Positions 7,162-23,194 of a stretch of DNA of 64,000 bases are shown piece after piece. This stretch comes from Streptomyces sp. SN-593 (GTDB lineage Bacteria; Actinomycetota; Actinomycetes; Streptomycetales; Streptomycetaceae), in NCBI RefSeq assembly GCF_016756395.1, contig NZ_AP018365.1, forward strand, positions 2,797,501 through 2,861,500. Reading direction: 5' to 3'. The notes under the pieces were generated by a model that saw only the letters and a program-made list of their open reading frames with translations, had not been told where the DNA came from and made no database searches. Position numbers and translations under genes: made by a program. Every line of letters begins with the position of its first letter. The first letter of the stretch is position 1.

Positions 7162-8631
7162 GTGACGCAGACGCCAACCGGCAGCAGCACGGGTACCGCA
7201 CCGGTGCGGGCGGTACCGGACCAGGCGGCAGAGCGGCAGGGCGGGACCGCCCGGCCCCTGCCGCCCGCCGCGCACGCCCCGCGCCTGACGGCCTGGCGGG
7301 AGTCACTCGTCCGGGTACGGGCGGCGGCCACCACGGAACCGGGCCGGCTGCGCCTGATCGGCGCGGCCGTCGCCGCCCTCGTCCTCGCCTTCGGCGCCGT
7401 CACCGCCTGGCAGGTGGCCGAACGGCAGTCCGCGGCGGGCAACGTGATCGACCACAGTGCCCCGTTGAGCGCGAACGCGGCCGAGATCTACCGCTCCCTC
7501 GCCGACGCGGACGCCACCGTCGCCGGCGGCTTCCTGGTCGGCGGCGAGGAGCCGAAGAAGGTGTCGGACCGCTACCGGAACGACATCACCACCGCAGCCG
7601 AGCTGATCGCCGACGCCGCCGCGAACAGCGCCGGCTCGCCGCAGGCGCGCACCCAGATCGCCACGCTGAACAGCCAACTCCCGCAGTACACCGAGCTGGT
7701 GGCGACCGCGCAGGCCGACAACCGGCAGGGGCTGCCGCTGGGCGGCGCCTACCTGCGGTACGCCGACGCGCAGATGCGCAAGCAGGGCGGCCTGCTGGAC
7801 GCCGCCGACAAGCTCTACCAGGCCGAGAACGGCCGGCTCGGCGCGGACTACTCCGACGCGAAGGCCATGCCGTACGTGTCCTGGGCGCTGGGCGTGATCG
7901 CGCTCGCCGCGCTGGTCTGGGCGCAGCGCCGCCACTACCGCCGCACCAACCGGGTGTTCAACCAGGGCCTGCTGACGGCGACGGCGGCGACCGCGGTGGT
8001 GCTGGTGTGGCTGGTCGCGGCGCACACCGTGGCCCGGAACGACCTCGCGGACTCCTCCACCCACGGCGCGAAGTCGATCCAGGTGCTCAACAACGCCCGC
8101 ACCGAGGTGCTCCAGGCCCGCGGCGACGAGAACCTGACCCTGGTCGCACGCGGCTCCGGCGACGAGTACGAGAAGAACTTCACCCAGGAGATGGAAGCGC
8201 TGGCCGGCAAGGGCAGCGGCGCCACGGCGGCCGACGGCAGCGAGCTGGCCCAGGCGCTGGCTCTCGCGGACAAGGAGGCCGGCCGCGCGCCGGTGCGCTC
8301 CGCGATCGCGGACCTCGCCGAGTGGCGGCAGCGGCACACCAGCGAGCGCGCCGCCGACGACGGCGGCGACTACACCACCGCGGTCGCCGAGGTGATCGGC
8401 GGGAAGAACAGCAGCGGCGCGCAGGTGACGGAGACCACCGGGAAGACCTTCGACGCGGTCGACACCAGCCTGGGCCAGGCCGTCGCGCAGGAGCAGAAGG
8501 AGTTCCACCAGGCCGCGACCGACGGCCGCGGCGCGCTGGCGCTGCTGCCGTTCGGCGCGGGTGTGCTGGCGGTGCTCGCCGCCGCTGCCGCGCTCGTCGG
8601 CATCGGCCGGCGGCTGTCGGAGTACCGGTGA
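7162..8631 (+). CDS. glnX: GlnX-like membrane signalling protein
   Basis: This protein of about 489 residues has a hydrophobic segment near residues 50-75 (LRLIGAAVAALVLAFGAVTAW), a long helical extracytoplasmic region, two spans in the middle (MPYVSWALGVIALAALVWAQ and LLTATAATAVVLVWLVAAHTVA), a second helical loop and a C-terminal span (LLPFGAGVLAVLAAAAALVGI). This layout, and its place before a GlnH-like binding protein and a PknG kinase, match mycobacterial GlnX, which relays amino-acid binding by GlnH across the membrane to PknG (established in mycobacteria). The GTG start follows GGGGAGGG at 7151-7158. The assignment rests on topology and gene context more than on sequence motifs. Confidence 0.8.
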   Translation: MTQTPTGSSTGTAPVRAVPDQAAERQGGTARPLPPAAHAPRLTAWRESLVRVRAAATTEPGRLRLIGAAVAALVLAFGAVTAWQVAERQSAAGNVIDHSAPLSANAAEIYRSLADADATVAGGFLVGGEEPKKVSDRYRNDITTAAELIADAAANSAGSPQARTQIATLNSQLPQYTELVATAQADNRQGLPLGGAYLRYADAQMRKQGGLLDAADKLYQAENGRLGADYSDAKAMPYVSWALGVIALAALVWAQRRHYRRTNRVFNQGLLTATAATAVVLVWLVAAHTVARNDLADSSTHGAKSIQVLNNARTEVLQARGDENLTLVARGSGDEYEKNFTQEMEALAGKGSGATAADGSELAQALALADKEAGRAPVRSAIADLAEWRQRHTSERAADDGGDYTTAVAEVIGGKNSSGAQVTETTGKTFDAVDTSLGQAVAQEQKEFHQAATDGRGALALLPFGAGVLAVLAAAAALVGIGRRLSEYR

Positions 8632-8702
8632 ACGCGGTGCGGACGTACAGACGTACACAGGGGCGGAGCAGGTCCGGCCGGGCCGGGAGCGAGGAGGTCG
8701 CG

Positions 8703-9707
8703 GTGAGCCGTACAGCACGCGGATGGGGCGGGGTCGCCACGATGGCGGCGGCCTGCGCGCTGACCGTCACGGCGGCGCTGAGCCCGTTGGGCGTGGGGCC
8801 GCTGGCCGGCGTCCCGGCTGCGGTGCGGGCCTCGACCTCGGTGCCCTCCGCCGGCACGCCGATCGCGCACGGGCAGTACGCCGCCGCGACCGACGCGGGC
8901 ACCTGCGCGGCGCCGGAGGCCAGCCTGTCGCCGTCGTCGGGCAGCACCGACGGCGCGGCCGTGGAGCGGATCAGGAAGCGCGGCCGGCTGATCGTCGGGG
9001 TGGACCAGAACAGCTACCTGTGGGGCTTCCGCGACCCGGAGACCGGCGCCATCGCGGGCTTCGACATCGAGATCGTGAAGGCCGTCGCGCAGGACATCCT
9101 CGGCAGTTCGGCGAAGGTGCAGTACCTCACGGTGCCCACGAACAAGCGGGTGCCGGACATACAGGAGCACAAGGTGGACATGGTGGTGCGCACCATGTCG
9201 ATCACCTGCGACCGGCTCCAGAAGGTGGCGTTCTCCATCCCCTACTTCGAGGCCGGCCAGCAGCTTCTGGTGCCCAAGGACTCGGCGATCACCGGGTACG
9301 ACGACAGCCTCAAGGGCAGGACGGTGTGCACCGCGTCGAGTTCGACCGGGCAGGCCAAGCTGGAGCAGGACGCGCACGGCGCCCGCGTGAAGGCCGTCGA
9401 CAACCAGCTCGACTGCCTGGTGCTGCTGCAACTGGGCCAGGTCGACGCGGTGTTCACCGACAACGCGCTCGCCGCCGGCCAGGCCGCGCAGGACCCGACG
9501 GTGCACGTGGTCGGATCACCGGTCACCAAGGAGCCGTACGGTGTGGCCATGAACCTGGACGACAAGGACCTCGTGCGCCGGGTCAACCAGGTGCTGACGG
9601 CCTACGAGGCCGGCGGCGCGAACAGCGCGTGGATGCACTCCTACGAGAAGTGGCTCGCCAAGGACCTGCCGGGTGTCACCGGACCGCCGGAGCCGACGTA
9701 CCAGTAG
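8703..9707 (+). CDS. glnH: GlnH-like amino-acid-binding protein
   Basis: This 334-residue protein is a family 3 extracellular solute-binding protein. The mature domain starts near RIRKRGRLIVGVDQNSYLWGFRDPETGAIAGFDIEIVKAVAQDILG. An N-terminal hydrophobic signal (residues 10-40) is present, but no clear lipobox is seen, unlike mycobacterial GlnH, so it may be secreted or held by its signal anchor. No permease or ATPase genes for amino-acid import are nearby; its partners are GlnX and PknG, so the likely role is sensing extracellular Asp, Glu or Gln rather than transport. The GTG at 8703 follows GAGGAGG at 8691-8697. A GTG at 8628 overlapping the glnX stop is an alternative start. Confidence 0.85.
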   Translation: MSRTARGWGGVATMAAACALTVTAALSPLGVGPLAGVPAAVRASTSVPSAGTPIAHGQYAAATDAGTCAAPEASLSPSSGSTDGAAVERIRKRGRLIVGVDQNSYLWGFRDPETGAIAGFDIEIVKAVAQDILGSSAKVQYLTVPTNKRVPDIQEHKVDMVVRTMSITCDRLQKVAFSIPYFEAGQQLLVPKDSAITGYDDSLKGRTVCTASSSTGQAKLEQDAHGARVKAVDNQLDCLVLLQLGQVDAVFTDNALAAGQAAQDPTVHVVGSPVTKEPYGVAMNLDDKDLVRRVNQVLTAYEAGGANSAWMHSYEKWLAKDLPGVTGPPEPTYQ

Positions 9708-9860
9708 GGAGGGCGGTTCTCCGGGAGGTGCGGTCCGCCGGGGGCGGGGCCTCCCGCCGGCGGGGACGCTCCGCCGGACGGCGGGACGGCAAGGCAGCGA
9801 GGCAGCGGGACGGCGGGGCGGCACGGTCAGCTTGGGCACGGCCTACGGGAAGAGGGTGTG

Positions 9861-11150
9861 ATGGCGGTCGCGGGAGCCTCCGGACCGGTGATGGGCCGGG
9901 AGGACGTCGATCTTGCGCTGGAGCGGCTCGGCGCCGAGCACGAAGCCGTCGAGACCTCCCTGCTCGCCCTCCAGGACCACTCCGGGCGCAGACTGCTCGA
10001 AGGCGCCGAGCTGACCGGCGTCACCAAGGAGCGGTGGGAGCGCACCGACACGGCGATCACCGCGATGTGGGCGCACTTCGACGCGTACACCGGCGCGTTG
10101 CACGCCGCCCGCGAGCTGCGGGCCCGCCGCCGCTGGCCGACCCAGACCGAACTGGCGCGGCTCACCGAGCTGTTGCGCGGCGAGGGCGTCACGGTGCTGG
10201 GCGCCACGGTGCCCGACCACGAGCGCTCGCTCACCGGCCCGGCCCGCGCCAGCGAGCAGTTGAGCCTGGGCGAGCTGGTCCGCCGGATGACCGCCTGGTA
10301 CGACCAGGCCATGGAGACCGTGGCCGCCGCCGACGCGGTGTGGTCCGCGCTGCCGGCCCGGATCGACCTGCTGGCCGCCGAGACGCAGCGGGTCCGCTCG
10401 CTGGCGCGCTCGGTGGGCGTGCGCCCGGGCGAGCACCCCTGCGGCGACGAACTGGAGTCTCTGGTCGAGGAGTTGACGGAGCTGCGGGCCCGCAGCGTCT
10501 CGGACCCGCTGGCCTTCTGGAACCCGCTCCCGGCCCCCGGCCGGCCCGACACCGGGCGCTACGACGACGCCGGGCGCCGGCTGGAGGAGATCCGGCGCGA
10601 GGTGGAGGCGGTCCTGCATGTGCGGGACGACGCCGAGCACCGGCTCGGGCGGCTGCGCGACGTGATGTCGCGGGCCGACCGCACCCTCACCGAGGCGCGC
10701 GCCGCGCGGGTCGAGGTGCTGTCGAAGATCCTTGCCTCCGACGTGCCCGCGGTCAGCGGGCCGGCCTCCGCGCTGCACGAACAGCTCGCCGCGGCCGAGG
10801 AGTTCGCCAGGACCGCGCAGTGGCACCGGCTCTCCCCGCTGCTGGACGGCCTGGAGGGGCACGCCGACGACGAACTGCTGCGCGCCAGGGAGTCGTTGAC
10901 GGCGGTGACCGCGCCGCTGGCGGTCCGGGCGGAGCTGCGCGGCCGACTCGACGCGTACCGGGCCAAGGTGGCCAGGCTCGGTCTGGCGGAGGACCCGGTG
11001 CTGATCGAACGGTACGACCAGGCACGGCGGTTGCTGTGGAGCGCGCCGTGCGACCTGGGCGCGGCCGAGCGGGCGGTACGGCGCTACCAGCAGGCCGTCT
11101 CCGACCTGGGCAGTACCCCGAGCGGTTCCGCTGACCGGGGGTCGGCATGA
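9861..11150 (+). CDS. predicted coiled-coil protein in the PknG cluster
   Basis: This 429-residue protein has no family I recognise. It is almost wholly charged and alpha-helical in composition, rich in Glu, Arg, Ala and Leu with runs such as REVEAVLHVRDDAEHRLGRLRD. There is no signal peptide or membrane span, so it is probably a cytoplasmic coiled-coil protein. It sits between the receptor pair and the kinase, with a gap of about 150 bases before it. AGAGGG at 9851-9856 supports the ATG at 9861; the GTG at 9858 is in frame. Its stop overlaps the ATG of the small repeat ORF. A scaffold or adaptor role between the membrane proteins and PknG is inference from position only. Confidence 0.8.
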   Translation: MAVAGASGPVMGREDVDLALERLGAEHEAVETSLLALQDHSGRRLLEGAELTGVTKERWERTDTAITAMWAHFDAYTGALHAARELRARRRWPTQTELARLTELLRGEGVTVLGATVPDHERSLTGPARASEQLSLGELVRRMTAWYDQAMETVAAADAVWSALPARIDLLAAETQRVRSLARSVGVRPGEHPCGDELESLVEELTELRARSVSDPLAFWNPLPAPGRPDTGRYDDAGRRLEEIRREVEAVLHVRDDAEHRLGRLRDVMSRADRTLTEARAARVEVLSKILASDVPAVSGPASALHEQLAAAEEFARTAQWHRLSPLLDGLEGHADDELLRARESLTAVTAPLAVRAELRGRLDAYRAKVARLGLAEDPVLIERYDQARRLLWSAPCDLGAAERAVRRYQQAVSDLGSTPSGSADRGSA

Positions 11151-11386
11151 GCGGGCACGCGGCGTCGGCGCCGCACCCGTCGACACCGCGCCCGTCGGCG
11201 CCGCACCCGTCGACACCGCGCCCGTCGGCGCCGCACCCGTCGACACCGCGCCCGCGCCCGCGGGCGGGTCGGCGCGCGATCGGCGGTCCGCGCGCGAGAA
11301 TCGGCACGGGGCCGCGCCCGGGAGCGGGCATCGGCACCGGCGGCCGTGCGGAACAGGCGACGGCGTCAGGTACAGGGAAGGCGTGA
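11147..11386 (+). CDS. short Pro/His/Ser repeat ORF, doubtful
   Basis: This 79-residue ORF starts with an ATGA overlap onto the coiled-coil gene and ends 10 bases before the pknG start. Its first half is a threefold ten-residue repeat (SAPHPSTPRP) encoded by an exact 30-bp DNA repeat. The rest is Arg/Gly rich. Codon third positions are GC-rich in this frame and the start overlap is suggestive, but low-complexity sequence can mimic both. It may be a real small disordered protein or just the pknG leader. Confidence 0.35.
   Translation: MSGHAASAPHPSTPRPSAPHPSTPRPSAPHPSTPRPRPRAGRRAIGGPRARIGTGPRPGAGIGTGGRAEQATASGTGKA
11163..11252. repeat. three perfect 30-bp tandem repeats
   Basis: A 30-bp unit beginning CGTCGGCGCCGCACCCGT is repeated three times without mismatch at 11163-11192, 11193-11222 and 11223-11252. 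The period is a multiple of three, so it keeps the reading frame of the small ORF that contains it. Perfect identity suggests recent expansion and a possible length polymorphism between strains. Confidence 0.95.
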
Positions 11387-11396
11387 GGGGGAGACC

Positions 11397-13976
11397 GTGA
11401 GCGAGTGCCAGCGACCCGGCTGCGACGGGACCTTGGAGGACATGGGCGGCGGCGACCTGTACTGCGACACGTGCGGGCTGGCGCCGTCGCCGGCCCCCGC
11501 GCCGGCGGCTGCCCCGTCCGGTGCCGCGGGCTCCGGTACGGGCGCGGGCGCGGCAGGTGCGGGCGGCCCTGGTACGGGGGGTGCGGCGCCGGTTCCCGGC
11601 GCCCGCTCCGGCGCGGACTCCGGCCAGTCCTCCACCGGCGCGTCCTCCGCTTCCTCCTCCCGCTCCTCGCGCTCCTCCCAGGCGTCGCGCCGCTCGGTCT
11701 CCGGGCGGCTGTCGCAGTCACTGGCCGGCGGCTCCACCGGCGGCTCGGTGTCGGTGCGCAGCACCCGCGGTTCGAGCAGCGGCCCGACCCGCGGCAAGCT
11801 GGGCGCCGGGCTGGTGCCCGTACCGACGGTGCCGCGGCCCGATCCGGCCGCCGCGGTGCTGGAGAACCCGGAGGTGCCCGAGCGCAAGCGGTTCTGCAGC
11901 AAGGGCGACTGCGGGGCGCCGGTGGGCCGCAGCCGCGAGGGGCGCCCCGGCCGTACCGAGGGCTACTGCACCAAGTGCGGGCACCCGTACTCCTTCACGC
12001 CCAAGCTGCGCCCGGGGGACGTGGTGCGCGGGCAGTACGACGTGGCGGGCTGCCTCGCGCACGGCGGGCTCGGCTGGATCTACCTGGCCAGGGACCGCGC
12101 GGTGGCCGACCGCTGGGTCGTGCTGAAGGGCCTGCTCGACACCGGCGACGAGGACGCGCTGGCCGCCGCGGTCTCCGAGCGGCGCTTCCTCGCCGAGATC
12201 GAGCACCCCAACATCGTCCGGATCTACAACTTCGTCGAGCACCTCGACCAGCGCACCGGCACCCTCGACGGCTACATCGTGATGGCGTACGTCGGCGGCA
12301 AGTCGCTCAAGGAGATCGCCAACGAGCGCCGCACGCCCGAGGGCCGGCGCGAGCCGCTGCCGGTCGCCCAGGCGATCGCGTTCGCCATCGAGGCCCTGGA
12401 CGCGCTCGGCCACCTGCACAGCCGCAACCTGCTGTACTGCGACTTCAAGGTGGACAACGCGATCCAGACCGAGGACCGGCTCGAACTCATCGACATGGGC
12501 GCGGTGCGCCGGATGGACGACACCGAGTCGGCGATCTACGGCACGGTCGGCTACCAGGCGCCCGAGGTCGCGGAGGTCGGCCCGTCGGTCGCCTCCGACC
12601 TGTACACCGTCGCCCGCACCCTGGCGGTGCTGACCTTCGACTTCCAGGGCTACACCAACGTCTTCGTGGACAGCCTGCCCGACCCGGACAAGATCGAGGT
12701 CTTCCGGCGCTACGAGTCGTTCTACCGGCTGCTGGTGCGTGCCACCGACCCGGACCCGCACAAGCGGTTCGCCTCGGCCGAGGAGATGGCCGACCAGTTG
12801 CTGGGGGTGCTGCGGGAGGTCGTCGCCCTGGAGTCGGGCACGCCGCGGCCGGCCCTGTCCACCCTCTTCGGTCCCGAACTGCGCGTGGTGGACACGCAGT
12901 TGGTGCGGCCGCTGACCGGGGACACCTCGCAGCTCGGCGCGGTGCGCCCGCCGGACGCGCCGCGGCGCTCCCGCGCGGACCGCGGTGCCCGGGCGCAGAC
13001 CGCGCCCGCCGTACCGCCGCCGGGCGGCGGCTGGGGCCCCGGCCGGCCGATCGTCTCCCGGCTCGACACGACCGCGGCCGTCCTGGCGCTGCCGGTCCCG
13101 CACGTCGACGCCGGCGACCCCAACGCCGGCTTCCTGGCCGGTATCGCGGCCGCGGCGCCCGGCGAGGCGGTGGCCGCGCTGGCGTCCGCGCCGGTCGACT
13201 CGGTGGAGAAGCGGCTGCGCGAGCTGCGGGCCCTGCTGGAGCTGGACGACCTGCCGGGCGCCCAGGAGGTGCTGCGCGGTCTGGAGGAGTCCGGCGAGGA
13301 CTGGCGGGTGGTCTGGCACCGCGGCCTGGTCGGGCTGTGCGCCGCCGACCACGCGACGGCGGCGCTCAGCTTCGACGCGGTCTACGACGCCTTCCCCGGC
13401 GAGCCCGCGCCGAAGCTGGCGCTGGGCGTCTGCGCGGAGGTGCTCGGGCAGCTCGACAACGCCGCCGAGTACTACCGCCTGGTGTGGACCACCGACCACG
13501 CCTACGTGAGCGCGGCCTTCGGGCTGGCCCGGGTGCTGCTGAGGTCCGGCGACCGGGTCGGCGCGGTGCGCGCCCTGGAGTCGGTGCCGGAGTCGTCCAT
13601 CCACTACACCGCCGCCCGGGTCGCCGCGATACGCGCCCGGCTGCGCGACCGCGCGCCGCAGGAGCCGCTGCTGCCGGACCTGCACGCCGCGGCCCGCCAG
13701 GTCGAGGACCTGCAACGGCAGGGCCTGGACCACGACCGCCGCGAGCAGCTCGCCACGGAGGTGTACGGCAGCGCGCTGGACTGGGTGCTGGCCGGCCGCA
13801 ACGGTGCGGGCGGGGCCCGGGACGCGCCGGTGCTCGGCGCCGAACTGGACGAGCGCGGACTGCGGTTCGGCCTTGAGCGGTCCTACCGGGTGCTCGCCCG
13901 GCTGGCCCGCCAGGGCGGTACGAGGATCGAACTGGTGGAGCGGGCCAACCGCTTCCGCCCCAGGACCTGGGTGTGA
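11397..13976 (+). CDS. pknG: PknG-type serine/threonine protein kinase
   Basis: This 859-residue kinase has the PknG architecture. First comes a Cys4 motif (Cys4, Cys9, Cys23, Cys26), then a long Ser/Gly/Ala-rich linker, a rubredoxin-like module (FCSKGDCGAPVGRS then YCTKCGHPYSF), the kinase domain and a C-terminal TPR-like helical region (about residues 570-859). Lys244 (VVLKGLL) is the ATP lysine, Asp349 in YCDFKVDN the catalytic base and Asp366 in IDMGAV replaces the DFG aspartate. IYGTVGYQAPEV matches the PknG activation segment. The GTG start follows GGGGGAGA. The extra N-terminal Cys4 motif makes it longer than the 750-residue mycobacterial PknG. In mycobacteria PknG controls TCA-cycle flux in response to amino acids; here its targets may include the FHA protein encoded downstream. 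Confidence 0.95.
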   Translation: MSECQRPGCDGTLEDMGGGDLYCDTCGLAPSPAPAPAAAPSGAAGSGTGAGAAGAGGPGTGGAAPVPGARSGADSGQSSTGASSASSSRSSRSSQASRRSVSGRLSQSLAGGSTGGSVSVRSTRGSSSGPTRGKLGAGLVPVPTVPRPDPAAAVLENPEVPERKRFCSKGDCGAPVGRSREGRPGRTEGYCTKCGHPYSFTPKLRPGDVVRGQYDVAGCLAHGGLGWIYLARDRAVADRWVVLKGLLDTGDEDALAAAVSERRFLAEIEHPNIVRIYNFVEHLDQRTGTLDGYIVMAYVGGKSLKEIANERRTPEGRREPLPVAQAIAFAIEALDALGHLHSRNLLYCDFKVDNAIQTEDRLELIDMGAVRRMDDTESAIYGTVGYQAPEVAEVGPSVASDLYTVARTLAVLTFDFQGYTNVFVDSLPDPDKIEVFRRYESFYRLLVRATDPDPHKRFASAEEMADQLLGVLREVVALESGTPRPALSTLFGPELRVVDTQLVRPLTGDTSQLGAVRPPDAPRRSRADRGARAQTAPAVPPPGGGWGPGRPIVSRLDTTAAVLALPVPHVDAGDPNAGFLAGIAAAAPGEAVAALASAPVDSVEKRLRELRALLELDDLPGAQEVLRGLEESGEDWRVVWHRGLVGLCAADHATAALSFDAVYDAFPGEPAPKLALGVCAEVLGQLDNAAEYYRLVWTTDHAYVSAAFGLARVLLRSGDRVGAVRALESVPESSIHYTAARVAAIRARLRDRAPQEPLLPDLHAAARQVEDLQRQGLDHDRREQLATEVYGSALDWVLAGRNGAGGARDAPVLGAELDERGLRFGLERSYRVLARLARQGGTRIELVERANRFRPRTWV

Positions 13977-13980
13977 ACCG

Positions 13981-15414
13981 ATGCGACCACTGCCCGAGTC
14001 GGCGCCCTCGGCGCCCACGGCCCGCCCCACGATCTGCCCCGACTGCTCGGAACCCCAGGGTCCCGAGGACCGGTACTGCGGGCGCTGCGGGCGCGACCTG
14101 AGCGCGCCCGTCCCCGGGCCGGGGCCCGCTGACCCGGGCCCGGGCCCGGACGGCCCGGCCGCCGCGGAGCCACGGGCCGCGGGGCGGGACGGTGCGGACG
14201 GCGGTGCGGACAGCGGCGCCGCCGAGGCCGGGACCGACCTCGCCCCGGCCCCGGAACCGGCCGGCACCGGCTCCTTCCTGCTCGCTCCCCCGCAGACCGC
14301 CTCCGCTTCCTCCGGTTCCTCCCCTGCCGCCTCTTCCGCCTCGTCCTCCTCCGACGACACGCTTCCGCTCGGCTTCTCCGCGCACCGGTCCGACCCGCGC
14401 GGGGACGACGCCGGCAGCGGCGGTGCGGCCGGCGGCAGCGGGACCGGGAGCGGCGGCGGCAGCGGCAGCGGCGGGAGCGGGGCCGGCGCCCCGGCCGCGG
14501 CCGGCCCGGTGTGCGTGGCGTGCGGCGTCGGCGGGGTCGACGACGACGGCTACTGCGAGCACTGCGGGCACGCCCAGCCCCGGCAGCGCGACCACCAGGA
14601 GAAGGAGCTGGAGGGCGTGGCCGCGGTGAGCGACCGCGGGCTGCGGCACCACCGCAACGAGGACGCGTTCGCGCTGGGCACCGTCGCCCTGCCCGACGGC
14701 GGCGCCGCCGTGGCGGCCGTGGTGTGCGACGGCGTGTCCACCGCCTACCGTCCCGACGACGCCTCCGCGGCGGCGGCCGCGACCGGCAGCGAGGCGCTCT
14801 TCGCCGCCCTGGAACGCGGCGCCTCCCCCGACGACGCGATGCGCGAGGCGCTGCTGACCGCGTTCGACGCGGTGAGCGCGCTCGCCGAGGAGGAGCCCCC
14901 GGAGCCGGTCCACCGCAACGCCCCGGCGTGCACCTGCGTGAGCGCGGTCATCACCGGCCCGGTCTTCACCGTCGGCTGGATCGGCGACAGCCGCGCGTAC
15001 TGGGTGCCGGACGACCGCGGCCGCCCGGCCGCCCGCCTCACCGAGGACGACTCGTGGGCCGCGCGGATGGTCTCGGCCGGGCTGATGTCGGAGGCCGAGG
15101 CGTACGCCGACGCGCGCGCCCACGCGATCACCGGCTGGCTCGGCGCGGACGCGGTCGAGGTGGACCCGCACGTGGCGGCCTTCCAGCCGGAGGGCCCGGG
15201 CGTGGTCGTGGTGTGCACCGACGGGTTGTGGAACTACGCCGAGTCGGCCGCGGAGATGGCCGAGGCGGTGCCGGCCGACGCCCGGACCAGGCCGCTGGCG
15301 AGCGCGCGTTCGCTGCTCGGCCTGGCGCTCGACGGCGGCGGACACGACAACGTGACGGTCGCGGTGCTGCCGTTCCCGGCAGACGTCGCACGGGCAGTAT
15401 CCCCCTCCGCCTAG
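13981..15414 (+). CDS. PP2C-type phosphatase with zinc ribbons
   Basis: This 477-residue protein ends in a PP2C Ser/Thr phosphatase domain (about residues 213-477). Its metal and catalytic motifs are SDRGLRHHRNEDAF, VVCDGVS, GDSRAYWV, VVCTDGLWNY and GGGHDNVTVAVL. Two Cys4 zinc-ribbon-like motifs precede it: Cys19/22/33/36 and Cys178/181/192/195, separated by a Gly/Ser/Ala linker. No membrane span is seen, so it should be cytoplasmic. It starts four bases after the pknG stop, so kinase and phosphatase are probably made together and act on common substrates. The same ribbon type occurs in the kinase and the FHA protein, suggesting a shared docking partner. Confidence 0.92.
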   Translation: MRPLPESAPSAPTARPTICPDCSEPQGPEDRYCGRCGRDLSAPVPGPGPADPGPGPDGPAAAEPRAAGRDGADGGADSGAAEAGTDLAPAPEPAGTGSFLLAPPQTASASSGSSPAASSASSSSDDTLPLGFSAHRSDPRGDDAGSGGAAGGSGTGSGGGSGSGGSGAGAPAAAGPVCVACGVGGVDDDGYCEHCGHAQPRQRDHQEKELEGVAAVSDRGLRHHRNEDAFALGTVALPDGGAAVAAVVCDGVSTAYRPDDASAAAAATGSEALFAALERGASPDDAMREALLTAFDAVSALAEEEPPEPVHRNAPACTCVSAVITGPVFTVGWIGDSRAYWVPDDRGRPAARLTEDDSWAARMVSAGLMSEAEAYADARAHAITGWLGADAVEVDPHVAAFQPEGPGVVVVCTDGLWNYAESAAEMAEAVPADARTRPLASARSLLGLALDGGGHDNVTVAVLPFPADVARAVSPSA

Positions 15415-15493
15415 CTCCGGCCGGCGCGGCGCCCGGGTGTCCGCGCACGGCAGGGGGGCGGACGAGCATCGGCGTTAAGGAGCACAGGAAGCG

Positions 15494-16819
15494 ATGCCCA
15501 GTCTTTCGAAGTCGAACGTGCCGCAGTTCTCCGTCGACGTGTACCAGAACGAGTACCTGCCCGAGGGCGGCCGCGAGGTCAACGCGATCGTCACGGTGAC
15601 CTCGACCGGCGGCGGCACCTCCGGCGGCCTGCCCCTGCCGGGCGGCTCCGCGTCGGCCGGGGTGGTCATCATGGTCGACTGCTCGGGGTCGATGGAGTAC
15701 CCGCCGACGAAGATGCGCAACGCGCGGGACGCGACCGCGGTCGCCATCGACGCGCTGCGCGACGGGGTGGCGTTCGCGGTGGTGGCCGGCACCCACCAGG
15801 CCCGCGAGGTCTACCCGGCCAACGGCGGTCTGGCGGTGGCCGACGCGACCACCCGCGCGCAGGCCAAGCAGGCGCTGCGCAAGCTCACCGCGGGCGGCGG
15901 CACCGCGATCGGCACCTGGCTGCGGCTCGCCGACCGGCTGCTGGACGGCTCCGGCGTCGGCATACGGCACGGCATCCTGCTCACCGACGGCCGCAACGAG
16001 CACGAGAAGCCGGAGGACCTGGCGAGCGCGCTGGACTCCTGCGCGGGCCGGTTCACCTGCGACGCGCGCGGGGTCGGCACCGACTGGGAGGTCAAGGAGG
16101 TCACCGGGATCGCCTCGGCGCTGCTCGGCTCGGCGGACATCGTCGCCGACCCGGCCGGCCTGGCCGCCGACTTCCAGGCGATGATGCACAGCGCGATGGG
16201 CAAGGAGGTCGCGGACGTCGGCCTGCGGGTGTGGACCCCGCAGAACGCCGAGATCGCGTTCGTGAAGCAGGTCGCGCCCACCGTCGAGGACCTGACCGGG
16301 CGGCGCACGCAGTCCGGTCCGCGCAGCGGGGACTACCCGACCGGGTCATGGGGCGACGAGTCGCGCGACTACCACATCTGTGTGAAGGTGCCACCGGTCG
16401 TCGTCGGCCAGGAGATGCTGGCCGCCCGGATCTCGCTGGTGTTCCCGCAGGCCGCCGGCACCCCGGAGGTGCCGGCGCAGGGACTGGTGCGGGCGCTGGG
16501 CACCGACGACATGGCCGCCTCGACCCGGATCAGCCCGCAGGTCGCCCACTACACCGGGCAGGCCGAACTGGCGCAGGCGATCCAGCAGGGTCTGGAGGCC
16601 CGCAAGTCCGGTGACCTGGACGCGGCCACCGCCAAGCTGGGCCGGGCGGTGCAGCTCGCCAGCGTCTCCGGCAACGAGGGCACCGCGAAGCTGCTGGCCA
16701 AGGTGGTGGACGTGGTGGACGCGGCGAACGGTACTGTGCGGTTGAAGCCCAAGGTCGCCGACGCCGACGAGATGACCCTGGAAACGCGGTCGACGGTGAC
16801 CGTGCGAGTGAAGAAGTAG
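15494..16819 (+). CDS. VWA domain protein of the PknG cluster
   Basis: This 441-residue protein has a von Willebrand factor A domain (about residues 50-240) with an intact MIDAS: Asp62 in DCSGSM, the Thr of GGGTAIGTWLRL and LLTDGRNEH. An N-terminal beta-sandwich-like segment (FSVDVYQNEYLPEGG) and a C-terminal helical part with TPR-like pattern follow. No signal peptide or membrane span is present, so it acts in the cytoplasm. AAGGAG at 15478-15483 supports the ATG. VWA proteins linked to a kinase and PP2C are known from TerY-P type triads; a role as a metal-dependent assembly factor for the complex is inferred from that parallel. Confidence 0.92.
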   Translation: MPSLSKSNVPQFSVDVYQNEYLPEGGREVNAIVTVTSTGGGTSGGLPLPGGSASAGVVIMVDCSGSMEYPPTKMRNARDATAVAIDALRDGVAFAVVAGTHQAREVYPANGGLAVADATTRAQAKQALRKLTAGGGTAIGTWLRLADRLLDGSGVGIRHGILLTDGRNEHEKPEDLASALDSCAGRFTCDARGVGTDWEVKEVTGIASALLGSADIVADPAGLAADFQAMMHSAMGKEVADVGLRVWTPQNAEIAFVKQVAPTVEDLTGRRTQSGPRSGDYPTGSWGDESRDYHICVKVPPVVVGQEMLAARISLVFPQAAGTPEVPAQGLVRALGTDDMAASTRISPQVAHYTGQAELAQAIQQGLEARKSGDLDAATAKLGRAVQLASVSGNEGTAKLLAKVVDVVDAANGTVRLKPKVADADEMTLETRSTVTVRVKK

Positions 16820-16889
16820 CCATCGGGTACCAAGTGCTCGCGCACACCTTTTTAAGCCGCCCGAGCCGGGCGGAGGGGGAGCCGACACC

Positions 16890-17960
16890 ATGCCGATCTG
16901 TGCCAACGGCCACCAGAGCAGCGCCACCGACTGGTGCGAGGTCTGCGGCCTGCTGATGGCGTCGCCGGCCGCGGGGTCGCGGCCGGCGTCCTCCGCGTCG
17001 TCGTCCTCGGCCTCGCCGGTCTCGGCCCCGCCGTCCTCGCCCTCGCCGCCCGGGTTCGGCGAGGGCCCGGCGGGCGGCTCCGAGCGCTGCCCGAACTGCG
17101 GGACGCCGCGGGAGGGCGCCGCGCTGTTCTGCGAGGAGTGCCGCTACAACTTCCGCACCCACGCGGCGACCGTGGTGCCGCCGCAGCCCGTCCCGCCCGA
17201 GTACCCGCCCTACCAGCGGCAGGAGTCGCAGGTCTCGCGGCCGTCCCAGGTCAACCGGCCGGCGGAGTCGGTGCCGGACGGCTCGGTCACCGTCACCTCC
17301 GGCTCGGGGGACTTCGTGCTCGACCCGCCGTCCAGGCCGGCGCGGCCGGGGGCGTACGAGCCGGGGTCCGCAGGGCCGGGGGCGTACGAGCCGGGGTCCG
17401 CAGGGTCGGGGGCATCCGCGCCGGAGTTCGCGGGGTCGGGGGCATCCGCGCCGGGGTCCGCGGGGCCGGGGGCATCCGCGCCGGGGTCCGCGGGGCCGGG
17501 CGGCTCGGCCACCGCCACCGGGCAGCCGCCGCAGTCCGCCGCGGCGGGCAGCAGCGCCGGCTGGGTGGCGGTGATCGCCGCGGACCGGGCGTACTTCACC
17601 GCGATGATGGCCCGCAGCGGGCCCGACGCCGGGAAGCTGTACTTCCCCGTGTTCTCCCCGGAGGTGGAGGTCCCGCTCACCGGGCACCAGGTCACGATCG
17701 GACGCCGCCGGCACAGCACCGGCGAGGCGCCGGACATCGACCTGTCCCGCTCCCCGGAGGACCCGGGGGTGTCGCACCACCACGCGGTGCTGGTGCAGCA
17801 GCCGGACGGTTCGTGGTCGGTGGTCGACCAGGACTCCACGAACGGGACCACGGTGAACCTCGCCGAGGAGTCCATCCGGCCCTACCTGCCCGTCCCCCTG
17901 GCCGAGGGGGACCGGGTGCACGTCGGCGCGTGGACCACGATCACGCTGCGGCGGATGTGA
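16890..17960 (+). CDS. FHA domain protein with N-terminal zinc ribbons
   Basis: This 356-residue protein begins with Cys/His motifs (CANGHQSSATDWCEVCG, then CPNCGTPREGAALFCEECRY). A Pro/Gly/Ser linker with five ten-residue repeats follows, and a C-terminal FHA domain (about residues 255-356). FHA phosphothreonine-binding residues are present: Arg272 in IGRRR, SHHHAVL, and Ser316/Asn318 in DSTNGT. Being downstream of PknG and PP2C, it is the likely phosphorylation target or reader, similar in role to mycobacterial GarA. However, the ETTVETT phosphosite of GarA is not present and the protein is twice as long. A small hairpin (CCGCCCG, three bases, CGGGCGG) lies just before the ribosome site. 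Confidence 0.9.
   Translation: MPICANGHQSSATDWCEVCGLLMASPAAGSRPASSASSSSASPVSAPPSSPSPPGFGEGPAGGSERCPNCGTPREGAALFCEECRYNFRTHAATVVPPQPVPPEYPPYQRQESQVSRPSQVNRPAESVPDGSVTVTSGSGDFVLDPPSRPARPGAYEPGSAGPGAYEPGSAGSGASAPEFAGSGASAPGSAGPGASAPGSAGPGGSATATGQPPQSAAAGSSAGWVAVIAADRAYFTAMMARSGPDAGKLYFPVFSPEVEVPLTGHQVTIGRRRHSTGEAPDIDLSRSPEDPGVSHHHAVLVQQPDGSWSVVDQDSTNGTTVNLAEESIRPYLPVPLAEGDRVHVGAWTTITLRRM
17341..17500. repeat. 30-bp tandem repeats in FHA protein linker
   Basis: Five full 30-bp copies and a partial sixth begin at 17341, 17371, 17401, 17431, 17461 and 17491. They encode ten-residue units of the type GAYEPGSAGP and GASAPGSAGP. The first two copies are nearly identical to each other, and the last three form a second subfamily. 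The frame is kept, so copy number can change without breaking the protein. Confidence 0.95.
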
Positions 17961-19618: not shown

Positions 19619-22600
19619 GTGACCGGATTCGTCCTGCTACGTGTCCGGGCGCATCGGCTCCTGCTCGCCGCCGCCCTCCTCACGGTGCTGCTGACCACGT
19701 GCGTGCTCGCCACGTTCACCGCCTTCACCGGGGCGATAGGCGACGCGGCCCTGCGCCGCACCCTCCAGCACCAGGCCGCCGGCCAGGCCACCGTCGAGGT
19801 GCAGAGCGACCTGAACGGCACCACCGCGGCGGCCGTCGACAAGGCCGTGCGCGGCCACCTGAGCGACGCCTTCGCCGGGCTGCCCACCAGCGTCCACGGC
19901 AGCACCCGCTCCGGCCCGTACGGCCTGCCCAGGAGCCCGCGGACCCCGGCCCCGACCTCGGACGACGAGCCCGACCTGACCCTGCTGGCCACCTTCGACC
20001 GCGCCCAGGTCCGGCTGGTGGAGGGGAGGTGGCCGGCCGCGGCCGGGCGGAGCGCCTCGCGGGTGCAGGTCGCCGTCCCGCAGGTGGCCGCGCAGGACCT
20101 CGGCGCCTCACCCGGCGACGTCCTCACCCTCGCCGACCGGCTCGGCGGCGCCCCGCTGACCATCCAGATCAGCGGCGTGTTCCAGCCACGCGACCCGGCC
20201 TCCCCGTACTGGCACCTCGACCCGCTGGGCGGGCGCGGCGCGCACACCGTCGCGTTCACCACGTACGGGCCGATGCTCGCCGACCCGGGCACCTTCGACT
20301 CCGGCCGGGTCACCGCGGCCGCGATGTCCTGGCAGGCCACCGGCGACTTCCGGCACGCCGGCGCGCGGTCCATGGACCGGCTGGAGAACGGCGTCCGGCA
20401 GACGCTCTACGCGCTCCACGACGACCAGGCCACCTCCACCACCACCGCGAGCAGCGGCCTGCCCGACCTGCTCGACGCGCTGCGCCGCAGCATGCTCGTC
20501 ACCCGCTCGACGCTGCTGATCGGCGCGCTGCAACTGGTGATCCTGGCCGGCTTCGCGCTGCTGCTGGTGGCCGGGCTGCTCGCCGAGGAGCGGGCCGGGG
20601 AGACCGCGCTGCTGCGCGCCCGCGGCGGGTCGCGGGCCCGGGTCGCCCGGCTGGCCGGCGGGGAGGCGCTGCTGCTCGCGGTGCCCGCGGCCGTGGTCGC
20701 CCCGCTCCTGGCCGGGCCGGTCACGCGGGGGCTGGCCGGCACCGGCGCCATGGCCCGCACCGGCGTCAGCCTCGGCTCCGGCAGCACGGGCCCGGCCTGG
20801 CTGGTCGCGCTGGCCGCCGCGCTCGCCTGCGCCTGCGCGGTGATCGTGCCGGCGCTGCGCACCGGAGGCCCCGGCGCCGTAGGGACCGCGCGCGCCCGGC
20901 TCCGCTCGCTGCCGGGCGGAGTGCAGGCCGGCGCGGACATCGGGCTGCTGATCGTCGCGGGCATCGCCTACTGGCAGTTGGACCGGCGCGCGTCGGGCAG
21001 CGGCGCGCTGAGCACGAACGCGGGCGGCGGCCTCGGGGTGGACCCGATCCTCGTGGCGGCACCCGCGCTGTGCCTGCTGGCCGGCACGATGCTGGTGCTG
21101 CGGCTGCTGCCGCTGGTGGCGAAGCTCGGCGAACGGCGGGCAGCGCGCGGCCGCGCGCTGCCGCTGGCGCTCGCCGGCTGGCAGCTCGCGCGGCGGCCCC
21201 GGCGCGGCGCGGGAGCCGCGCTGCTGCTGGTGCTGGCGATCGCGATGGGGGTCTTTTCGATCGGGCAGAGCGCGAGCTGGGACCGCTCGCAGCGCGACCA
21301 GGCGCAGTACGCCGTCGGCGCCGACCTGCGCGTCACCGGCATGACGACCCCGCCGTTCGGGCAGCCCGGGATCTTCGCGCACCAGGCGGGCATCGCCGCC
21401 GCGGCCCCCGCCGGCAGCGCCGGCCTCCTCCTCGACCAGAACCGGACGGCGACCGTGCTGGCCATCGACTCCGCGCGGGCCGGGAAGGCGATGCGGTTCC
21501 GTTCCGACCTCACCGGGGGGCGGTCGGCGGCCGAGGTGCTGGCACCGCTGCGCGAGGGGGTCCGGGCCGGCGGCGGTTTCGCGCTGCCGGCGGACGCGCG
21601 GAAGGCGGGGTTCGAGGCTGTGCTGAGGCCGGGCGCGGGCGGGTCCGGGGAGTCAGGCGGGTCCGGCGGGTCCGGCGGGTCCGGGGAGTCGGGCGGGCCG
21701 GGCGGGCCGGGCGGATCGGGCGGATCGGGCGGATCGGGTTCAGGGGGGACCGGGGGTTCGGCCGATCCGGGCGGTGCGGCCGGCACCCCGGGCGCCGTGG
21801 ACCACGTCGGCCTCGACATCGTGGACGCCGACGGCGTGCCGTACTCCGTCCCGATCGGCGACGTACCCGCCGACGGCCGGCCGCACCCGCTGGTCCTCGA
21901 CATCGCCTCGCTGGCCGGCGCGGCGGACGGCGCGCCCGCCGGTCCGCTGCTGGTCACCGGCCTGAGCGTCGGCTTCGACGTCCCGGACCAGGACGGGGCC
22001 TACACGCTGGCGGTCTCGGACGCGCGGGTCACCGATGCCGCGGGCACCGTCCGCACGCTGGCGGTGCCCACCCAGCAGTGGTCGTCCGCGCCCGCCTTCG
22101 ACGACCCCTCGCTCGCCCAGTTGCCGCGCACGCGCGACCCGCAGTCCGAGGTCCCGCGCGTCGGCGGGGGCGCGACGCTGGCGCTGCGCTACGACACCGG
22201 CGCCGTCCAGGTCACCAGGGGCGCCTCCGACGCGGCGCCGACCGCGACGGTGCAGGTCCGCGCGAACACCCCCGAGCCGCCCGCCGTCTCCGGTGTCGCC
22301 ACCGACGCCTTCCTCGCCTCGCAGCACGCGAAGGTCGGCGGCAGCGTCACCGTCCAACTGGGCGGTGTCCAGGTGCCGGTGCGCGTCGCGGGTTCGGTCC
22401 GCGCGATCCCCGGGCTCGGCGACGGCCGGACGGCCGGCACGGGTGCGGCCGGGTCCGACGGCTCGGCCGCGGGCTCCGGGTCCGACGGCTCCGACGCGTC
22501 CGACAGTTCGTCGCCCGGGTCGGACGCGGACGGCGGGGCGGGGTCGGACGCCGACCAGGACGTCGGCGGCGTGATCGTCGACCTGCGCGCGGTCAACCAG

Positions 22601-23194
22601 TACCTCCGGTCCCACGACGGCCAGGCCGTGGAGCCCACCGAGTGGTGGATCGCCGCCCGCCCGGGCGCGACCGCGCGGACCGCCGCGGCGCTGCGCGCCC
22701 GTACGGACGTCGACACCGTCCTGGTCGCCGACGAGACCGCCGCCGACCTGCGGTCCGACCCGCTGGGCGCCGGCCCGCAGTCGGCGCTGCCGGCCGCGGT
22801 CGTGGCCGCGGTGGTGCTGGCCGCGCTCGGCTTCGCGGTCTCCTCGGCGGGCGCGGTGCGCGAGCGCACCGCGGAGTTCGCGGTCCTGCGGGCGCTGGGC
22901 GCGCCCCGGCGCCAGCTCGCCCGGGTGATCGCGGCCGAGCAGGGGCTGCTGGTCCTGGTGTCGCTGGTCGTCGGCGCGGCGCTCGGCGCGCTGCTGACCC
23001 GGCTCGTGACGCCGCTGATCGTGCTGACCCCGCAGGCCACCACCCCCGTACCGCCCCTGGTCGTCCGACTGCCGGCCGGCCGCCTGCTCGAACTGCTCGC
23101 GGAGGTCGTGGTGGTGCCGGTCCTGGTGGTCCTGGCGACGGCGGTACGCCGGGGCGACCCGGCGACGGCGCTGCGGCGGCAGGGGGAGGACTGA
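19619..23194 (+). CDS. large FtsX-type ABC exporter permease
   Basis: This 1191-residue protein starts with a membrane span (HRLLLAAALLTVLLTTCVLATF), then a large extracytoplasmic domain, an FtsX core around residues 290-420 (LLIGALQLVILAGFALLLVAGLLAEERAGETALLRARGGS), more spans near 505-540, a second large loop that includes a Gly/Ser linker, and a C-terminal FtsX domain (ERTAEFAVLRALGAPRRQLARVIAAEQGLL). The architecture is that of MacB/LolE-like mechanotransmission systems rather than a classical transporter. It starts a three-gene operon with the next permease (one base gap after the stop) and an ATPase. The substrate is unknown. Confidence 0.9.
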   Translation: MTGFVLLRVRAHRLLLAAALLTVLLTTCVLATFTAFTGAIGDAALRRTLQHQAAGQATVEVQSDLNGTTAAAVDKAVRGHLSDAFAGLPTSVHGSTRSGPYGLPRSPRTPAPTSDDEPDLTLLATFDRAQVRLVEGRWPAAAGRSASRVQVAVPQVAAQDLGASPGDVLTLADRLGGAPLTIQISGVFQPRDPASPYWHLDPLGGRGAHTVAFTTYGPMLADPGTFDSGRVTAAAMSWQATGDFRHAGARSMDRLENGVRQTLYALHDDQATSTTTASSGLPDLLDALRRSMLVTRSTLLIGALQLVILAGFALLLVAGLLAEERAGETALLRARGGSRARVARLAGGEALLLAVPAAVVAPLLAGPVTRGLAGTGAMARTGVSLGSGSTGPAWLVALAAALACACAVIVPALRTGGPGAVGTARARLRSLPGGVQAGADIGLLIVAGIAYWQLDRRASGSGALSTNAGGGLGVDPILVAAPALCLLAGTMLVLRLLPLVAKLGERRAARGRALPLALAGWQLARRPRRGAGAALLLVLAIAMGVFSIGQSASWDRSQRDQAQYAVGADLRVTGMTTPPFGQPGIFAHQAGIAAAAPAGSAGLLLDQNRTATVLAIDSARAGKAMRFRSDLTGGRSAAEVLAPLREGVRAGGGFALPADARKAGFEAVLRPGAGGSGESGGSGGSGGSGESGGPGGPGGSGGSGGSGSGGTGGSADPGGAAGTPGAVDHVGLDIVDADGVPYSVPIGDVPADGRPHPLVLDIASLAGAADGAPAGPLLVTGLSVGFDVPDQDGAYTLAVSDARVTDAAGTVRTLAVPTQQWSSAPAFDDPSLAQLPRTRDPQSEVPRVGGGATLALRYDTGAVQVTRGASDAAPTATVQVRANTPEPPAVSGVATDAFLASQHAKVGGSVTVQLGGVQVPVRVAGSVRAIPGLGDGRTAGTGAAGSDGSAAGSGSDGSDASDSSSPGSDADGGAGSDADQDVGGVIVDLRAVNQYLRSHDGQAVEPTEWWIAARPGATARTAAALRARTDVDTVLVADETAADLRSDPLGAGPQSALPAAVVAAVVLAALGFAVSSAGAVRERTAEFAVLRALGAPRRQLARVIAAEQGLLVLVSLVVGAALGALLTRLVTPLIVLTPQATTPVPPLVVRLPAGRLLELLAEVVVVPVLVVLATAVRRGDPATALRRQGED
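21635..21765. repeat. 9-bp Gly/Ser repeat tract inside permease gene
   Basis: A run of GGGTCCGGC, GGATCGGGC and related nine-base units encodes a (GGS)n/(GGP)n linker of about 40 residues in the second extracytoplasmic loop of the first permease. It stays in frame and divides two folded extracellular parts. Slippage could vary its length. Confidence 0.9.

Follow-up and report, generated by a model that had tools for sequence, protein, structure and literature searches.

A seven-gene PknG locus in Streptomyces sp. SN-593 as a probable full form of an actinobacterial nutrient-sensing module

Introduction

Work on the kinase PknG has centered mainly on M. tuberculosis and C. glutamicum. The chain that leads from GlnH and GlnX through PknG to GarA/OdhI is established in mycobacteria and corynebacteria (PMC6069109, PMC9769921, PMC8546545), and the three-gene operon is found across Actinobacteria, Streptomyces included (PMC6069109). 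Here we analyze a stretch of 64,000 nucleotides from Streptomyces sp. SN-593 (NZ_AP018365.1, positions 2,797,501 to 2,861,500; hereafter the window), in which the genes for GlnX, GlnH, and PknG belong to a run of seven. We consider it probable, at about 0.6, that this locus is the complete version of the PknG-based nutrient-sensing module of actinobacteria, equipped with a writer, an eraser, a reader, and candidate scaffolds of its own.

Results

The tandem of GlnX, GlnH, coiled-coil (CC), PknG, PP2C, VWA, and FHA genes that an earlier note had read on the plus strand at 7162-17960 is borne out by the open reading frames and their intact motifs (Table 1). That list of parts, drawn from sequence alone, was right about the seven genes and overlooked the zinc ribbons, which occur on PknG, PP2C, FHA, and GarA. 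Intergenic gaps range from 4 bases (PknG stop to PP2C start) to 246 bases (CC to PknG).

Table 1. Genes of the PknG locus, in window positions
Product	Position	Strand	Family match
GlnX-type membrane signal transducer	7162..8631	+	NCBIfam NF058618 GlnX subfamily, 1.4e-135, above cut-off
GlnH-type amino-acid-binding protein; conserved N-terminal Cys, a candidate lipobox	8703..9707	+	
All-helical coiled-coil protein (CC), candidate adaptor	9861..11150	+	
PknG-type kinase: N-terminal zinc ribbon, linker, rubredoxin, kinase, TPR	11397..13976	+	
PP2C phosphatase with N-terminal zinc ribbons	13981..15414	+	PF13672, 2.9e-11
VWA protein with VWA_3_C	15494..16819	+	PF13768, PF18571
FHA protein: two N-terminal zinc ribbons and FHA domain	16890..17960	+	PF00498, 1.2e-13

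GlnH starts at a GTG at 8703 with GGAGG upstream, retains the TMSITC loop, and has M. tuberculosis GlnH (6H1U/6H2T, 1.7e-59) as its nearest solved structure. PknG matches the Pfam models PknG_TPR (3e-84), PknG_rubred (4e-30), and Pkinase (3e-21) (PF16918/PF16919/PF00069), and the kinase relatives are from Actinacidiphila and Streptomyces. Its conserved residues are K261, E278, D366, K368, N371, and D383, numbered from base 11346, and its N-terminal ribbon reads CQRPGCDGTLEDMGGGDLYCDTCG. The VWA protein has a complete MIDAS (D62, S64, S66, T137, D165), and its structure model, with a pLDDT of 65, is too low for use. The FHA protein carries the canonical phosphothreonine-binding residues G271 R272, S295, H298, and N318 G319. 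In alignments of 58-109 diverse loci, the catalytic-loop, MIDAS, PP2C metal-ligand, and FHA phosphothreonine-binding residues are at least 93% conserved, as are the ribbon cysteines of PP2C and FHA and, across 95 loci, the N-terminal cysteine of GlnH.

Searches of the coiled-coil protein against the Pfam and NCBIfam families gave nothing above cut-off. Its AlphaFold2 model (pLDDT 87) is nearly all alpha, and Foldseek returned nothing for it at E ≤ 0.001. A likeness to EzrA, the top VIA-align match (Z 10.4, rmsd 13), falls within the usual range for helical bundles and was set aside. Downstream in the window, at 19619-23194, lies an FtsX-like permease of 1191 aa with a long Gly/Ser-rich insertion.

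Each of the 64 Streptomycetaceae loci whose flanks are fully covered has the complete set of seven genes. Taken by itself this count proves little, because the neighboring genes on both sides (for a GH4 glycosidase, a BadF-type kinase, a methyltransferase, and a globin) are conserved there too, as would be expected if the arrangement were synteny without functional linkage. Outside the Streptomycetaceae, in contrast, these flanking genes occur at none of the loci, whereas PP2C, VWA, and FHA are still present and the seven-gene set remains linked even where its order has changed. In Streptosporangiaceae-like genomes (f15) the order is CC-PknG-PP2C-VWA-FHA-GlnX-GlnH, and a Nonomuraea locus (L190) clusters with two of these genomes with full support. 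In the f16, f22, and f11 genomes the genes are ordered as in Streptomyces, the helical one being weak or undetected in some, and in one genome of another class (L150) the set is present with GlnX-GlnH inverted. Since the gene set recurs across families while the flanking genes do not, its association is not due to chance. The flank comparison thus largely refutes mere synteny, which we regard as very improbable.

The set varies in detail. Four loci (f15g31) lack VWA but retain the ribbons, PP2C, and FHA, so VWA is not strictly required, and in one genome (G372) about 10 kb separate PP2C from VWA-FHA. A plasmid search with the VWA protein matched only one Nonomuraea record, of chromosome size. 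The earlier note had allowed that PP2C, VWA, and FHA might prove only occasional neighbors of pknG; in our survey they are regular neighbors in most of the non-Mycobacteriaceae families covered, with f41 as an exception.

GlnX-GlnH-PknG alone, the reduced form, was found in Mycobacterium-like and Corynebacterium-like genomes and also in two f41 genomes. The Mycobacterium-like PknG gives a full-length alignment with 2PZI, a structure from M. tuberculosis (1402 bits), and the top match of the Corynebacterium-like PknG is the C. glutamicum structure 7MXB. Two Mycobacteriaceae-like genomes (L115, L148) carry an additional full seven-gene island beside the reduced PknG locus. In a PknG tree rooted on PknG paralogues, these two island PknGs form the sister group of the reduced mycobacterial ones (100/99), and the two groups lie inside island-bearing lineages. 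Forcing the island PknGs into one clade was rejected (AU p 0.0079). Because the reduced PknGs are nested within island-bearing lineages, the reduced state is most simply explained as a loss, and from this phylogeny the mycobacterial three-gene paradigm looks derived from a fuller module. The earlier view of the module as a trait of this lineage is therefore too narrow, the island being widespread and the mycobacterial triple nested within it. Ribbonless PknG copies with no GlnX or GlnH nearby were also seen in f4g28 genomes (L112, L114, L116, L165, L167), and divergent ribbonless copies with GlnX-GlnH on the opposite strand in f16g32 genomes (L105, L132, L164).

A genome-wide search for the VWA protein in 23 genomes (E ≤ 1e-15) found no orthologue in the sampled Mycobacterium-like or Corynebacterium-like genomes with reduced PknG or in genomes lacking PknG. 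Matches outside the island were confined to PknG-paralogue clusters (G000, G228) and a broken copy in G075. The Streptomyces sp. SN-593 genome has a second, diverged PknG-like gene at G000:C1:2494816. Diverged PknG-like kinases adjoin VWA genes at L090, L091, L154, and L272; a Trypsin_2 protein is encoded upstream of the kinase at L091 and L154, and the VWA proteins of L090 and L154 have a zinc ribbon at the end.

The N terminus of island PknGs is a C-x4-C...C-x2-C ribbon that reduced PknGs lack. It is present in 80 of 80 Streptomycetaceae PknGs, and N-terminal ribbons also occur on island PP2C and FHA and on GarA. At least two of PP2C, VWA, and FHA lie near 58 of 64 ribbon-PknG loci as against 0 of 38 ribbonless ones (102 loci, relatedness ignored), a comparison that, like all our ribbon counts, is not blind, as the ribbon pattern was loosened after inspection, its first version having been too strict. 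An independent-pairs test of ribbon against island gave about 4 to 0, which cannot reach significance. One genome (G195) has a ribbon on PknG and on GarA, yet no PP2C, VWA, or FHA gene nearby and no VWA orthologue. In G075 (L157, L273), the PknG ribbon is half lost and the PknG locus lacks VWA and FHA, with PP2C, a broken VWA, and FHA at a second locus, which makes it a suggestive case.

The earlier note had taken the island FHA protein as the counterpart of GarA. This equation does not hold, for a GarA/OdhI homologue is encoded separately in the same genome, about 5 Mb from the island (G000:C1:7884997, L083; 8.1e-55, below the family's curated cut-off), with a SETTS (ETTS-type) motif and an N-terminal zinc ribbon. 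An initial search for GarA found it as a gene of its own in each of the 15 genomes covered. The GarA ribbon is present in 29 of 31 genomes with ribbon-PknG, the two exceptions being the Mycobacteriaceae-like genomes with the extra island, in none of 13 with reduced PknG only, Mycobacterium-like and Corynebacterium-like GarA being ribbonless, and in 7 of 25 without PknG. Because the losses sit on few branches, this pattern is only a lead to a possible PknG-GarA ribbon link rather than proof of one, and in an independent-pairs test the association between the PknG and GarA ribbons was not significant.

Discussion

In the module as we picture it, GlnH would bind an extracellular acidic amino acid and GlnX would relay the signal across the membrane to PknG, which would phosphorylate GarA, encoded elsewhere and bearing an ETTS motif, and probably also the FHA protein of the island. 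PP2C from the same locus would remove this phosphate mark, the FHA protein would recognize phosphothreonine on PknG or its targets, the VWA and helical proteins would aid complex assembly, and the N-terminal zinc ribbons of kinase, phosphatase, reader, and GarA would serve as docking tags. From the conserved gene content and intact sites we infer the roles of PP2C as dedicated eraser, FHA as phospho-reader, VWA and the helical protein as assembly factors, and the ribbons as docking elements, and it is likewise from sequence that we infer every interaction involving PP2C, VWA, FHA, the helical protein, or the ribbons. More tentatively, the ribbons of PknG as writer, PP2C as eraser, FHA as reader, and GarA as substrate might be a common docking address of an ancestral module; mycobacteria and corynebacteria might then have lost the ribbons, phosphatase, reader, and scaffold, and would today depend on phosphothreonine-FHA contacts for PknG to dock with GarA.

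The same genes could instead form two separate, linked branches, with GlnX-GlnH-PknG sensing amino acids and PP2C, VWA, FHA, and the helical protein making up a second PknG output, its main substrate the FHA protein, unrelated to GarA and 2-oxoglutarate metabolism. The island FHA is indeed distinct from GarA, and GarA is ribbonless in the two Mycobacteriaceae-like genomes where a full island accompanies the reduced PknG. However, those two genomes aside, the ribbon state of GarA tracks that of PknG (29/29 versus 0/13), and the sensor genes remain with the island even where it is reordered. We therefore judge this division rather unlikely.

A further alternative assigns the kinase-PP2C-VWA part to a defense or conflict system, either the TerY-P triad or the GAP1-N2 kinase theme. 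Actinobacterial neighborhoods have been described that combine a fusion of zinc ribbon and active kinase with a PP2C and a standalone vWA (Kaur et al. 2020, PMC7159879), and PknG-like paralogues adjoin trypsin-like and VWA genes. Against this, PADLOC matched the generic kinase domain only, with no match for PP2C, VWA, or FHA, although TerY-P models may be absent from it, and the island is near-constant at a syntenic site in Streptomycetaceae, unlike patchy defense islands. A defense role is accordingly improbable, and the TerY-P connection drawn in the earlier note comes down to generic domain resemblance.

If the three-gene system is a reduced derivative of a nutrient-sensing module of this kind, much PknG regulation may have gone unseen: a phosphatase devoted to the pathway, a protein that reads the phosphate mark, candidate scaffolds, and docking through ribbons. 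Such regulation could matter for how Streptomyces controls the TCA cycle and supplies antibiotic precursors. Neither the seven-gene module nor GarA ribbons were described in the literature searched, which is weak evidence of novelty as most subscription papers lay outside it.

The nearest published arrangement is that of the GAP1-N2 neighborhoods with a zinc-ribbon kinase, PP2C, and vWA (PMC7159879). Their third theme shares with the island an active zinc-ribbon kinase, a PP2C, a standalone vWA, and occurrence in actinobacteria. It differs in being described with DO-GTPase, GAP1, and FNIII, none of which turned up when the seven proteins, along with seven flanking stretches, were compared with Pfam (the GAP1 model may lie outside the Pfam set), and PknG is unmentioned in PMC7159879. 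The TerY-P triad likewise brings a kinase, PP2C, and VWA together at one locus, to which the island adds a sensor, FHA, and a helical protein. The mycobacterial and corynebacterial GlnX-GlnH-PknG system with GarA/OdhI has the same sensor, transducer, and rubredoxin-kinase-TPR kinase (without the rubredoxin in Corynebacterium) and a genomic GarA orthologue. Its locus, in contrast, lacks the PP2C, VWA, FHA, and helical-protein genes, and its PknG and GarA are ribbonless.
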